DNA of 64,000 nt, taken from assembly GCA_029907205.1 (NCBI GenBank), contig JARYMI010000017.1, positions 1 to 64,000 on the forward strand. Direction: 5' to 3'. The stretch comes from Clostridiales bacterium (GTDB lineage Bacteria; Acidobacteriota; Aminicenantia; Aminicenantales; UBA8522). The translations under genes were made by a program, and so were the position numbers. Below the pieces are notes generated by a model. It did not search any database, had not been told where the DNA came from, and was given only the letters and a program-made list of their open reading frames with translations. Shown piece after piece: positions 4,744 through 44,872 of the stretch (position 1 is its first letter; every line of letters begins with the position of its first letter).

Positions 4744-4935
4744 GGCTCGGGTTTGGGGTCGTCAGCACGCTCGTTTCCCCAGCGAGGAAACTCGCTCCGA
4801 CTCATCCTTCGCTCTTCTCTCCCTCCGGTCGAGAAACCGTGCCCGCTCAGTCTTCGACGGGCTTCCTCACCCCAAACCCTCGCCTCTTCCCCAGGGGCCG
4901 AGGGCGGCTTCCTGCGCCCATCAGAAACGCACAAA
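4744..4935. other. GC-rich structured intergenic element 1
   Basis: The 375-bp gap between the GWxTD operon and the next gene holds no convincing gene. It contains a long-range 11-bp perfect inverted repeat, GGGTTTGGGGT (4749-4759) with ACCCCAAACCC (4869-4879), and inner hairpins such as the GTTTCC/GGAAAC pair near 4769-4790. Its right end reads CCTGCGCCCATC, which also occurs in element 2 (22879-23000, opposite strand). Its left end GGCTCGGGTTTGGGG is nearly repeated at 36245. It is either a dispersed repeat or a structured RNA; short ORFs here translate into low-complexity Arg/Pro/Ser sequence. Confidence 0.5.
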
Positions 4936-4964
4936 CGGGGATTCTCATAGAGGAGTGTCAAGCC

Positions 4965-21898: not shown

Positions 21899-22765
21899 TC
21901 AGGCATCGAGGAAAGAAGGAGCTTCGGACTCCTCGAACGCCCAAAAATCAGGGTTGCGAAGAAGGAAGTGAATGGTCTTCAGATGAAGGCTGTGTCCGGC
22001 TCGATAAGCCTTGAAATGACCCAGAAAGGGATGCCCCCAGAGGGCAAGATCGCCGATCAAATCAAGAATTTTATGCCGGACAAACTCATCGGGAAAACGA
22101 AGCGGGCCGTTGATCACCTTTTCGTCATCCAAAATCACGGCGTTCTCGAGAGTCCCTCCCTTAGCCAGTCCCCTTTTCCAGAGCTCCAGGACATCTTTGA
22201 GAAAGCCGAAGGTTCGGGCTGGAGCGATCTCAGCCAGGAACCCCTGCCTGGTTGCGGCGAAGGAGAACTCCTGGCTGCCGATCGCCGGATGGGGAAACTC
22301 GATTGAATAAGTTAACCTGAAGTCCTGATCAGGGCTAAACGAGAGGCTGGCTTGCCCCTCCCTAAGAGTATGTTCCCTGAGTATTTTGACCACTTTTTTC
22401 TGACTAGGCAGCCGGCTTAGGCCAGGCTCGAGGATCGCGTGCGCCAGAGGAAGGGCGCTTCCGTCCATAACCGGGATCTCGCCGCCGTCAAGGTCAATCT
22501 CGATGCTATCAATACCCAGAATGTGAAGGACAGCCAGGAGGTGCTCCACGGTTTGAACGGCGCAATCTTCCGAAATCAGGGAGGAAGAGTTCTTCGATTC
22601 GACCTTTAAGGGGTCAACTTCGATTTCACGGCCGCCCAGGTCCAGGCGCCGAAAGACTATCCGGCCGCAAGCAGAAGGTCTCAAAGTCAAGGAGACTCGC
22701 TGGCCCGAATGGATGCCGACCCCCGAAAGAAAAACCTCCCTCTGAATCGTCCTCTTCTCGACCAT
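21899..22765 (-). CDS. lpxC: UDP-3-O-acyl-N-acetylglucosamine deacetylase
   Basis: A 288-residue zinc enzyme committing UDP-GlcNAc derivatives to lipid A. Zinc ligands are visible in VEHLLAVL (first His) and FVRHKILDLIGD (second His and Asp), and the catalytic-side His in GHFKAYRAGH. The N-terminus RTIQREVFLSGVGIHSG is typical of the family. Its presence is the strongest evidence in the window for an LPS-bearing outer membrane. It lies upstream of, and on the same strand as, the TPR-glmU-glmS operon, and read-through would link lipid A to amino-sugar supply. Confidence 0.95.
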   Translation of the reverse strand: MVEKRTIQREVFLSGVGIHSGQRVSLTLRPSACGRIVFRRLDLGGREIEVDPLKVESKNSSSLISEDCAVQTVEHLLAVLHILGIDSIEIDLDGGEIPVMDGSALPLAHAILEPGLSRLPSQKKVVKILREHTLREGQASLSFSPDQDFRLTYSIEFPHPAIGSQEFSFAATRQGFLAEIAPARTFGFLKDVLELWKRGLAKGGTLENAVILDDEKVINGPLRFPDEFVRHKILDLIGDLALWGHPFLGHFKAYRAGHSLHLKTIHFLLRNPDFWAFEESEAPSFLDA

Positions 22766-22820: not shown

Positions 22821-22878
22821 GCACCCGCCGTTTGGGGAAACATCTTGCAAGCTTTTCCAAACGTGTGATCTTCGCGAT

Positions 22879-23000
22879 GGGCGCAGGGGGCTGCTCTGAA
22901 GCCCCCGTAGCGGAGGGGGGACCTGTCGGGTTTCCCGACGGGGGGAACCGAGGGGACTGGTTCCTCGGGGTGCGGGGGCCAAGGGCAGCCTACTGCGCCC
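22879..23000. other. GC-rich structured intergenic element 2
   Basis: Between lpxC and larB, 122 bp form a closed multi-hairpin design on paper. The outer stem is GGGCGCAG (22879-22886) with CTGCGCCC (22993-23000). Inner stems are GGGGGCT/AGCCCCC, CCTGTCGGG/CCCGACGGG with a three-base loop, and GGAACC/GGTTCC. On the minus strand its end reads CCTGCGCCCATC, identical to the right end of element 1. No coding potential is convincing. It may be a dispersed repeat, a structured RNA or a leader; it lies upstream of the larB promoter, so it is not in the larB transcript. Confidence 0.5.
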
Positions 23001-23017
23001 TGCAGAATCATGCCGGC

Positions 23018-23047
23018 CTGGCAAGAATCGGTCTCTTGTGCTAAAAT
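23018..23047 (+). promoter_or_regulatory. Predicted promoter giving a leaderless larB transcript
   Basis: TAAAAT (23042-23047) preceded by TGTGC, with CTGGCA (23018-23023) as -35 at 18 bp. The GTG start at 23055 is 8 bp after the -10 box, which is where transcription itself should begin. Confidence 0.5.
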
Positions 23048-23054
23048 AATTATT

Positions 23055-23798
23055 GTGAAAACCGGCGTGGAGGAGATCCTCGCGAGAGTCTATAAGAAAG
23101 AAATTTCGCCTGAAGAGGCTTTCCAAAGGCTTAAAGAGTTATCCTACCAGGACTTAGGCTTCGCCAAGGTCGACCACCACAGGGCGGTGAGGAAAGGCTT
23201 CCCCGAGATGATCTATGGCCCGGGGAAAAGCGAAGACCAGATTATCAGGATCGCCCAGGAAATCAAGAAAAGAGGGAACAACCTGCTGATCACGCGGCTG
23301 GAGGCTCCGGTCTACGCCAAGCTGAAGAAAAAAATCCCGGGATGCCTCTACAGCCGAGATGGAAAAATCGCCTATCTCAAACAGAAAAAAACCATTCCTG
23401 GAAAAGGAAAAATTGGGATCATCACGGCCGGGACATCCGACATTCCTGTGGCCGAGGAAGCAGCCATCACCTGCGAGATTCTGGGCAACGATGTGGAAAG
23501 AATCTACGACGTTGGCGTGGCCGGAATCCACCGCCTTTTCGGAGAAATGGAAAAGATCAAGACGGCCAGGCTGATCATTGTCGTGGCCGGAATGGAGGGA
23601 GCTTTGCCGAGCGTCGTCGCTGGACTGGTCAGAGTGCCGGTCATCGCGGTCCCGACAAGCGTTGGCTACGGAGCCAATTTCCAGGGACTTTCTGCTCTTC
23701 TGGCCATGCTCAACTCCTGCCCCGGCGGAGTGGCTGTGGTCAACATCGACAACGGGTTCGGCGCCGCCTGCATGGCCAGTCTGATCAACCATTTGTAA
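23055..23798 (+). CDS. larB: Pyridinium-3,5-biscarboxylic acid mononucleotide synthase
   Basis: A 247-residue protein starting at GTG 23055. The N-terminal third (ARVYKKEISPEEAFQRLK, DHHRAVRKGFPEMIYGPGKS) is specific to LarB, and the C-terminal part is PurE-like (IGIITAGTSDIPVAEEAA, DVGVAGIHRL, GMEGALPSVVAGL, PTSVGYGANFQGL). LarB carboxylates and hydrolyses nicotinic acid adenine dinucleotide as the first step to the nickel-pincer cofactor of lactate racemase-type enzymes. LarC, LarE and LarA are not in the window, so its pathway partners must be elsewhere. Confidence 0.9.
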   Translation: MKTGVEEILARVYKKEISPEEAFQRLKELSYQDLGFAKVDHHRAVRKGFPEMIYGPGKSEDQIIRIAQEIKKRGNNLLITRLEAPVYAKLKKKIPGCLYSRDGKIAYLKQKKTIPGKGKIGIITAGTSDIPVAEEAAITCEILGNDVERIYDVGVAGIHRLFGEMEKIKTARLIIVVAGMEGALPSVVAGLVRVPVIAVPTSVGYGANFQGLSALLAMLNSCPGGVAVVNIDNGFGAACMASLINHL

Positions 23799-27310: not shown

Positions 27311-27355
27311 CCGCCCGGAGCGCTGACGGCCCCAAACCAGAGCCTTCTGCTTCAA

Positions 27356-35255: not shown

Positions 35256-36245
35256 ATGCCAGCTAATTTGACTCCCCAGTACATCGAAGCCGAGAGGAAA
35301 TTCCGGGCAGCCAAGACTGCGCAGGAAAAAATTAAATGCCTCGAGGAAATGATAGCCACGATCCCCAAGCACAAGGGGACAGAAAAGATGCAAGCCATGC
35401 TCAAAACCAAGATGGCCAAGCTCAGGGCAGCGCTCGAGTCCCGGCCGGGAGCCACCCGCCACGGCCCGGGCTTCCACGTGGAGAAGTCCGGCGCCGGCCA
35501 GGTCATCGTCATCGGACCGCCGAACAGCGGCAAATCCTGCCTCATCGCAGCTCTCACGGGCGCCCAGCCCGAAGTCGCGGACTATCCGTACACAACCCGA
35601 TTTCCCGCTCCTTACATGATGAAGCACGAAAACGTCAGGGTTCAGCTCGTGGACACGCCTCCGCTTTCGCCCGATGACATCAACGCCGAGCTTGTTGAGT
35701 TAGCCAAAACAGCCGATTGCATCATGTTAGTCCTCGACCTGGCCAACAGGGACGCTGCTTCTGCCCTGGAGGCGCTTCTCTCTGGGCTCCAAGGAAAGCG
35801 GCTGGAGCTGGCGCCAGAAAACGCTTCCCCTTTTCAGGAGCCCGGCAGGTTCGTTAAAAAGACGCTCGTTGTGGGAAACAAAAGCGATCTCCCGGCAGCT
35901 GAGGAAAACGCCGCTTTCCTCCGGGAATATTTTGCAGATAAAATTTCGTTCGTTGTTGCATCGGCCGTCCGGGGTGACGGCGTGGACGCGCTGCGCACAA
36001 GAGTTTTTCTTCTTCTTGACGTCATCCGCGTGTACAGCAAGATCCCGGGAAAGAAGGCGGATTTAAGCGACCCTTTCGTTTTGAAGAAAGCCAGCACCGT
36101 GATGGAAATGGCGCGGACCGTGCACAAGGATTTCGTCGAAAAATTCAGGTATGCCCGGGTCTGGCGGAAGGGCGCGCTCCAGGGTCAGATGGTTAACCGC
36201 GACTTTGTCCTCGAGGACGAGGACATCGTCGAGCTCCACATATAG
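35256..36245 (+). CDS. TGS domain GTPase (Obg/DRG-like)
   Basis: I choose the ATG at 35256, giving MPANLTPQYIEAE; a GTG at 35244 is in frame. The 329-residue protein has an N-terminal helical hairpin, a GTPase domain with G1 VIGPPNSGKSCL, G2/G3 YPYTTRFPAPYMM and LVDTPPL, and G4 VVGNKSDLP, then a C-terminal TGS domain (from about residue 265) that usually contacts RNA or ribosome-associated factors. It resembles the DRG/Obg branch but is shorter. The role is probably in ribosome function. The short leader has no good Shine-Dalgarno site. Confidence 0.85.
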   Translation: MPANLTPQYIEAERKFRAAKTAQEKIKCLEEMIATIPKHKGTEKMQAMLKTKMAKLRAALESRPGATRHGPGFHVEKSGAGQVIVIGPPNSGKSCLIAALTGAQPEVADYPYTTRFPAPYMMKHENVRVQLVDTPPLSPDDINAELVELAKTADCIMLVLDLANRDAASALEALLSGLQGKRLELAPENASPFQEPGRFVKKTLVVGNKSDLPAAEENAAFLREYFADKISFVVASAVRGDGVDALRTRVFLLLDVIRVYSKIPGKKADLSDPFVLKKASTVMEMARTVHKDFVEKFRYARVWRKGALQGQMVNRDFVLEDEDIVELHI

Positions 36246-36431
36246 GCTCGGGTTTAGGGCCGTCAGTCCGACATCGTGAGAATGGGTCCTGTCACGGCGC
36301 GTCCCCGTCCGTCCTTGCCGGAGACGCTCACATATTTCTGGGCCCTCCTTGATTGCTCAAGGAGGGTAGGGTGGATTAATAATTTTAAAATCAATTTCTT
36401 TTTAAGCGTCTCCGTCCTCGCTCATACGGAC
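36245..36431. other. Structured intergenic element 3 between convergent genes
   Basis: The 240-bp gap after the GTPase has no gene. It starts GGCTCGGGTTTAGGGCCGTCAG, 20 of 22 bases identical to the start of element 1. Nested perfect inverted repeats follow: GTCCGT/ACGGAC (36307-36312, 36426-36431), CGGAGACGCT/AGCGTCTCCG (36319-36328, 36405-36414) and an inner hairpin CCCTCCTTGA-TTGC-TCAAGGAGGG (36343-36366). The 10-bp inner hairpin could stop transcription from either convergent gene but lacks a T-tract. The first base overlaps the GTPase stop codon. Confidence 0.5.
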
Positions 36432-44399: not shown

Positions 44400-44872
44400 G
44401 GCTTGCCTCCTTTTTCCAGGTCTATTACATTTCTAATAATTGCAACTTCCGTGCCAATCGAAGACTGGCCGCCGAGCCATAGGCCGCTTCGGTTTTCGTC
44501 CTTATTCGGGGACACCTGCGGCCTTTGCAGGGGACAGTCCTTGGTGAGGGCCGCCCCCATCTTGAAAGCCTCTCCAAATCCGTGAACATTGCCGTCGGGA
44601 TTTGAGCATGGAGGAGCGACTTCGAAGGTTTAGCCTTTCGGGGGCGTTTTTCGAGGGAAACCGGCCTGGCGGTCGCGAGGACTGTCTGAGCTCGCTCGGA
44701 ATAAAGGGAAATGCCCCGGACGGTCAAGAGCAGTGTCAGATGGGATCGATTGACGTGCGAGTTCCGCAGTGCCGAGAAAAGCGGCTCTGAAACGGCGTGA
44801 AAAACCTGAGTGGAGCGACGAGATGCTCAGGTCCCGACAGATTCATTTAATGATCACAAAAAAGGAGATGCT
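44400..44872. other. Long non-coding stretch with REP-like palindromes
   Basis: No credible gene in this 470-bp stretch on either strand. It contains tandem GGGGAC motifs around a CCTGC/GCAGG stem (about 44508-44543, GGGGACACCTGC then GCAGGGGACAGTCC) and several GC-rich purine blocks. The left end includes the leader and AAGGAGG ribosome site of the FecR-domain gene. It may be decayed or repetitive sequence. Confidence 0.4.

Follow-up and report, generated by a model that had tools for sequence, protein, structure and literature searches.

Correia, beside ERIC and RUP, is an example of a MITE, and the stem-loops of the REP/REPIN class are 20-40 bp long with GTAG at one end. Rickettsia palindromic elements (RPE) are dispersed palindromes of about 150 bp, many of which lie in frame in unrelated genes (PMC10969869, PMC3733652), and the R. 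conorii RPE sequences carry CGTC at one end (PMC3733652). PARCEL (palindromic amphipathic repeat coding element) is described as palindromic coding DNA that is patchy in distant bacteria and consists of tandem repeats of 25 amphipathic residues (PMC2996958).

Here we analysed two intergenic elements in a stretch of DNA of 64,000 nucleotides (the window), which a preliminary description had read as members of one dispersed family of structured repeats or non-coding RNAs. We found that these palindromes are dispersed and nested, that their arms change in step, that their core occurs under three phylum titles, and that in an Elusimicrobia genome (G063) they have target site duplications (TSDs) and in-frame copies. 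In our view these are likely to be non-autonomous mobile palindromes working like RPE or MITEs, with element 2 as one copy and element 1 as a composite derived from them.

Two elements of different make-up

The features of the two elements are as follows.

22849..23039, + strand: element 2 with its outer arms, a copy of family E2 (at least 41 own-genome BLAST matches)
22876..23000, + strand: the E2 hairpin proper, GATGGGCGCAGG...CTGCGCCC, with a 17-pair outer stem and inner helices (z -6.1; covariation)
22900..22981, + strand: the conserved E2 core, comprising AGCCCCCGTAGCGGAGGGGGGA, the variable hairpin P2, the hairpin P3 (GGGGAACC/loop/GGTTCC) and CGGGGGCC (alignments A1 and A2)
4745..4890, no strand given: the E1 module, a second palindromic family and the bulk of element 1 (own-genome and order matches)
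4891..4922, no strand given: an E2-arm remnant (AGGGGCCGAGGGCGGCTTCCTGCGCCCATC) joined to E1 and containing the 12-mer (81.8% match)
4923..4949, no strand given: what is left of an outer arm module (ATCACAnnnnnnGAGATGCTT), corresponding to the CAC-containing segment (by eye against the arm consensus)

Element 2 is flanked by divergent genes at 21899-22765 (-) and 23055-23798 (+), with gene ends taken from a home-made gene finder. Its limits, previously placed at 22879-23000, widen to about 22849-23039 when the weaker outer arms are counted: the arm query matches 22849-22906 in the left part of the element, and the right-hand outer arm is degenerate. The predicted fold of element 2 (22870-23010) is far more stable than those of its shuffles, with a z score of -6.1 and none of 200 shuffles as stable. 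The same does not hold for element 1, with a z score of -1.6 and 14 of 200 shuffles as stable, although the outer stem GGGTTTGGGGT/ACCCCAAACCC is present in its predicted fold.

The 12-base terminus said to be shared by the two elements, CCTGCGCCCATC, is indeed exact in both, at 4911-4922 (+) and 22876-22887 (-), the only two exact sites in the window. In element 1, however, it is not the end of the element's own stem but belongs to the E2-arm fragment at 4891-4922; the stretch 4894-4926 matches element 2 at 81.8%. Allowing up to two mismatches, the 12-mer occurs 10 times in the window versus 7.4 expected by chance, a count reached by 20 of 100 shuffles, and we therefore rejected it as stand-alone evidence of kinship. 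The homology of the elements rests instead on the genome-wide repeats described below. The CAC-containing segment noted in both elements is present as well, and reads as what is left of an outer arm that the elements share (consensus TGTGATC...). Element 1 accordingly consists of E1 (4745-4890), to which a broken arm of E2 (4891-4922) and part of an outer arm are attached. The two elements are thus not one family as first thought, element 1 being mainly E1 with only arm sequence in common with element 2.

Further pieces of this kind occur on the same contig. A third palindromic intergenic element at 44571-44872 of the window has the same outer arm module at its right end (GATCACAAAAAAGGAGATGCT), and its contents resemble, by eye, the sequence beside E1 in loci L037, L204 and L205. 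Positions 36242-36318 and 27322-27344 give short matches to the beginning of E1 and to part of E3 (a nested family described below), and are probably remnants of further elements. Past the window, at 64257-64330 of its contig, lies another E2 copy truncated by the contig end; several copies of the window's own genome (G000) and of G063 are likewise located at contig ends, and the repeats therefore probably break assemblies.

Copies within and beyond the window genome

A BLAST search of the own genome, in which 40 of the 50 first-look candidates were scored, gave at least 41 matches to element 2 at E <= 1, with element 2 itself among them. The preliminary description had proposed a covariance-model search of the genome; with a model of E2 this gave 44 matches at E <= 0.01 among the best 150 of 749 candidates. 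For element 1 there are 39 own-genome matches. Eight of them, element 1 itself being one, are 130 bp or longer and represent E1 as a separate family, and 21 cover only query positions 151-196, namely the E2 arm. Within the order, E2 was found in 26 of 59 genomes (best 14 candidates at most scored per genome) and E1 in 27 of 59, the own genome included in both counts; several of the genomes with E1, such as G001, G003 and G007, lack E2.

An exact-pattern scan of named genomes found E2 under the titles Aminicenantes, Acidobacteria, Saccharicenans, Elusimicrobia, Yanofskybacteria and Taylorbacteria among the matches listed (at least 94 stretches), the taxa being those of the MAG record titles, taken at face value as to contamination. 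With the best 150 candidates at most scored per genome, the E2 model detects 91 (G063) and 16 copies in Elusimicrobia genomes, 25 (in a 0.7-Mb genome) and 5 in Yanofskybacteria, 1 in Taylorbacteria, 4 in UBA10528 and 8 in Saccharicenans. Genomes sampled from the class to which the Yanofskybacteria genome belongs (Patescibacteria) seldom carry E2: 3 of 112 are positive at E <= 1e-8, including the already known G059 and G060. In the Elusimicrobia order sample E2 is present in 3 of 4 genomes, including the already known G062 and G063. Viral contigs gave no exact match to the E2 core pattern. Locus L070 comes from another member of the order of the window genome or from that genome itself, and is identical in sequence to L101 from an Aminicenantes isolate, which suggests that the window belongs among the Aminicenantes. 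In two loci of the Saccharicenans type (L083 and L086), three E2 cores stand in tandem at a spacing of about 144-151 bp.

A conserved core between covarying arms

The consensus of the aligned copies of the window genome is GGAAGCATCTCC-n-TGTGATCTTTATGATGGGYGCAGGAGGCTGCCCTGAAGCCCCCGTAGCGGAGGGGGGACCC-hairpin-GGGGAACCGACGGGACTGGTTCCCCGGGG...GGGGGCC-AAGGGCAGCTTCCTGCRCCC...ATCACA-n-GGAGATGCTTCC. E2 units measure about 125-190 bp, have inverted-repeat ends in the elements tested, and carry RTAG internally, at the edge of the core.

Covariation was assessed on two alignments: A1 contains 31 of 33 copies of the window genome (L055 and L066 were omitted for a deletion and an insertion, and two more copies were skipped at contig ends), and A2 contains 70 rows hand-picked from 95 diverse copies of the 119 found by a low-tolerance pattern. 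On the 31 copies, 96.1% of the cells of the E2 structure pair. Double-sided changes affect 14 of 42 pairs, 13 of these 14 in the outer stem, and helix 1 has 13 of its 17 pairs changed on both sides. Compensatory changes, which the preliminary description had suggested looking for, amount to 56 double-change cells versus 11.8 in shuffles, with none of 500 shuffles as high, and versus 6-18 in slid controls, a comparison that favours the E2 structure because the latter was derived from the tested alignment. The core is nearly constant within the window genome and so contributes little covariation there. Among the 70 diverse copies of A2, 5 of the 7 pairs of the inner hairpin P2 show double changes with pairing kept; invariant columns of A2 are partly built in, since its rows were found by a pattern allowing few changes. 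The outer arms of the A2 copies do not align usefully, but individual copies have arms that differ in sequence from those of others and still pair with each other.

Collectively, the description of the elements as a dispersed structured-repeat family is borne out, in a more general form than first put forward, by about 44 genome copies, by compensatory changes in the stem and by copies under the titles of other phyla. A lack of further copies and of covariation would have refuted it, and both are present.

Nesting of palindromes

Between the outer module, AAGCATCTC-N6-TGTGAT, and its complementary counterpart stands E2, E1, an E3 hairpin (L026) or almost nothing (L221). E1 is located within E2 halves in L032 and L042, and by eye within E3 in L034. 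E3 is a further nested hairpin family (GTGGCACGGCGTCAGYCCC...GGGGMCGCGCCGTGACAC) in the same outer arms, seen in L026 (1735-1920), L034 and L039. In G063 the core between the same arms is enlarged in L302, and L308 has a different core there. An extra hairpin domain beside TAGCGGAG gives units of 181 bp in L302, L303, L304 and L305, 48 bp more than the common form, and the extra domain of L310 is larger still. Insertion into the tips of pre-existing hairpins would explain such nesting.

Target duplications and in-frame copies

Evidence for movement comes from G063. For this genome we considered 44 arm-defined elements with both flanks present in the regions fetched; as a few of them have other or enlarged cores, the 44 need not all be among the 91 model matches. 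The common form is 133 bp long (32 of 44) and the element ends are GTAAG...CTTAC. Exact direct repeats of at least 7 bp flank 25 of the 44 elements, versus 0.17 expected from re-paired flanks, and 14 of these 25 are exactly 8 bp at one offset. In the window genome only 2 of 20 arm-bounded elements, a set without element 2, have an exact 8-bp repeat (L008 and L221), at differing offsets. Clear TSDs are thus confined to G063 among the genomes examined, and in the window genome the duplications are mostly worn away.

In 39 of the 44 elements of G063, the length plus 8 is divisible by 3, and 11 of 44 are in coding frame on both sides according to a home-made coding score; the strand of the element that is read differs among the intragenic copies. 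In G059, 3 of 21 copies are in coding frame under a looser rule, and no intragenic copy was found in the window genome. The inserts in proteins are single and Gly/Ser/Pro-rich. In an alignment of a Yanofskybacteria RecG with 1gm5, residues 1-491 correspond to 111-591, and residues 541-709 correspond to 596-765; the roughly 45 additional residues between the two blocks lie at the element. Between the two structure matches of an RNA methyltransferase-like protein there are 79 versus 22 residues, at the element, and in UvrC the UvrC matches flank the insert on both sides without a single spanning alignment. Stop-free frames do not exceed what composition predicts: in one representative element 2 frames are open, versus a shuffled mean of 2.9 (P 0.83). 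Across 47 elements, two frames are open in 16, one in 24 and none in 7. With no excess of open frames, the in-frame copies may just be survivors.

Alternative explanations

The elements could instead be a family of structured RNAs, non-coding or cis-regulatory, encoded at many loci in each genome. Compensatory changes combined with conserved unpaired nucleotides are what a functional RNA would also show. Copies in the window genome sit between genes in all four orientations, and 25 of 35 there share the direction of the right-hand gene, a lean in line with such a family. Against this, the figure is 35 of 80 in the named loci (100 copies, less 16 that lack a pair of flanking genes and 4 that lie within an ORF), and tandem contexts divide 10 to 6 in the window genome but 17 to 23 in the named loci. 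A fixed orientation upstream of genes was accordingly rejected, as the named loci show no lean though the window genome does. Rfam gave no match to either element at the gathering score and none up to E 5 in five loci. Together with the 8-bp duplications around the related G063 elements and the in-frame copies on either element strand, these results make an RNA family improbable, and this part of the preliminary description is not supported. A different possibility is that the host has retained an old repeat for its role in DNA architecture, such as a gyrase or protein-binding site or an mRNA stabiliser, and that the arm covariation stems from template-switch correction rather than from selection. 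The mostly intergenic placement, the near-invariant core and the scarcity of clear TSDs in the window genome are compatible with it, but a distribution as patchy as that of E2 (26 of the 59 order genomes; 3 of the 112 Patescibacteria class genomes sampled) and intragenic copies in other phyla ill suit a housekeeping element, and the conserved unpaired core is beyond the reach of template switching; we regard this explanation, too, as unlikely.

The palindromes could also be REP/REPIN-like sequences moved by IS200/IS605-type tyrosine transposases (RAYT or TIRYT). RTAG does stand at the core edge, 44 of the order's 59 genomes, the own one among them, have Y1 transposases, and REPs inside genes are known (PMC3733652). 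The window genome has one PF01797 match, in a 147-aa ORF of IS200 length, but the E2-rich genomes G014 (96% complete) and G040 (91%) have none, and phmmer with three transposase queries, a search of limited sensitivity, found no Y1 relative in the named loci. A RAYT/IS200 partner was rejected on this presence and absence, since E2-rich genomes lack one. Transposases of the IS200/IS605 class are not known to make a target duplication, so that the 8-bp TSDs of G063 argue against them as well, and movement by such enzymes is in our view very unlikely. Neither the tyrosine-transposase searches nor those for exact ends yielded a mobilising enzyme. In G063 no end pair was seen at transposon-like spacing (60 exact 11-mer end sites; 12 regions outside the main E2 matches), and no autonomous element with the same ends was found by exact arm pattern in G000-G003 and G007, both being searches that would miss divergent ends.

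Discussion

In the mobile palindromes favoured here, each unit is one long hairpin, in which complementary arms surround a G-rich core with conserved single-stranded segments and two inner hairpins. The mover would most likely be a DDE-type transposase acting in trans with an 8-bp staggered target cut, and the copies in the window genome have probably spread by transposition too. A need for a hairpin or for paired termini, perhaps aided by template-switch correction of imperfect palindromes, would keep the arms complementary, and the core would be kept because something in trans recognises it. Template-switch correction acts on quasi-palindromes, and it could produce part of the arm covariation alongside selection.

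Several observations run counter to this reading. No parental element was seen with exact end patterns, clear TSDs are confined to G063 among the genomes examined, and stop-free frames are not in excess. The termini vary between lineages while the centre is conserved, which is the reverse of an ordinary MITE, and the copies of the window genome lean towards the direction of the right-hand gene. The conserved centre with changing ends appears to be the unusual feature of the family, as seen in a cross-phylum set that was collected with the core as bait. It is possible, though we put this forward only tentatively, that the element is an 'inside-out' mobile palindrome: a folded core would be recognised in trans in at least three phyla (Aminicenantes/Acidobacteriota, Elusimicrobia and Patescibacteria), the arms would be free to change as long as they remain complementary, insertion would occur at the tips of other hairpins, and units that are 3n long together with their 8-bp duplication (133 + 8 = 141) would give proteins in-frame linkers.

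If true, in-frame palindromic insertion, best known from Rickettsia, would also take place in other and very small genomes (25 copies in 0.7 Mb) and would lengthen repair and RNA-modification proteins by peptide segments. A core shared across phyla with lineage-specific arms would offer a handle on what moves palindromes and what an enzyme recognises in them. For annotation, such inserts can pass for novel domains or conserved RNAs. In the literature that we searched, the core string TAGCGGAGGGGG was not found, none of the titles, RPE and REP papers among them, concerned such repeats in these phyla, and a MITE review contains no mention of Elusimicrob-, Aminicenant- or Patescibacteria.

The E2 palindromes share features with several known systems. 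Like REP, BIME and REPIN sequences they are palindromic and mainly intergenic with some intragenic copies, but the units are much longer, have no GTAG or CGTC end tag, have no consistent RAYT and, in G063, have TSDs. With MITEs they have in common short length, inverted-repeat ends, many copies and, in G063, target duplication; they differ in that no parental insertion sequence was found with exact end patterns, that their ends are lineage-specific around a conserved centre, and that units nest in each other's hairpins. PARCEL is likewise palindromic coding DNA that is patchy among distant bacteria, whereas the inserts here are single and Gly/Ser/Pro-rich rather than tandem amphipathic repeats. 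The likeness to RPE, which we compared by description, lies in dispersed palindromes whose relatives in G063 and Yanofskybacteria are in frame in genes, although the window copies were not seen so. The E2 family differs from RPE in occurring in other phyla, in having the ends GTAAG...CTTAC in G063 where R. conorii RPE have CGTC at one end, and in combining a centre conserved across genomes of three phyla with an 8-bp TSD.
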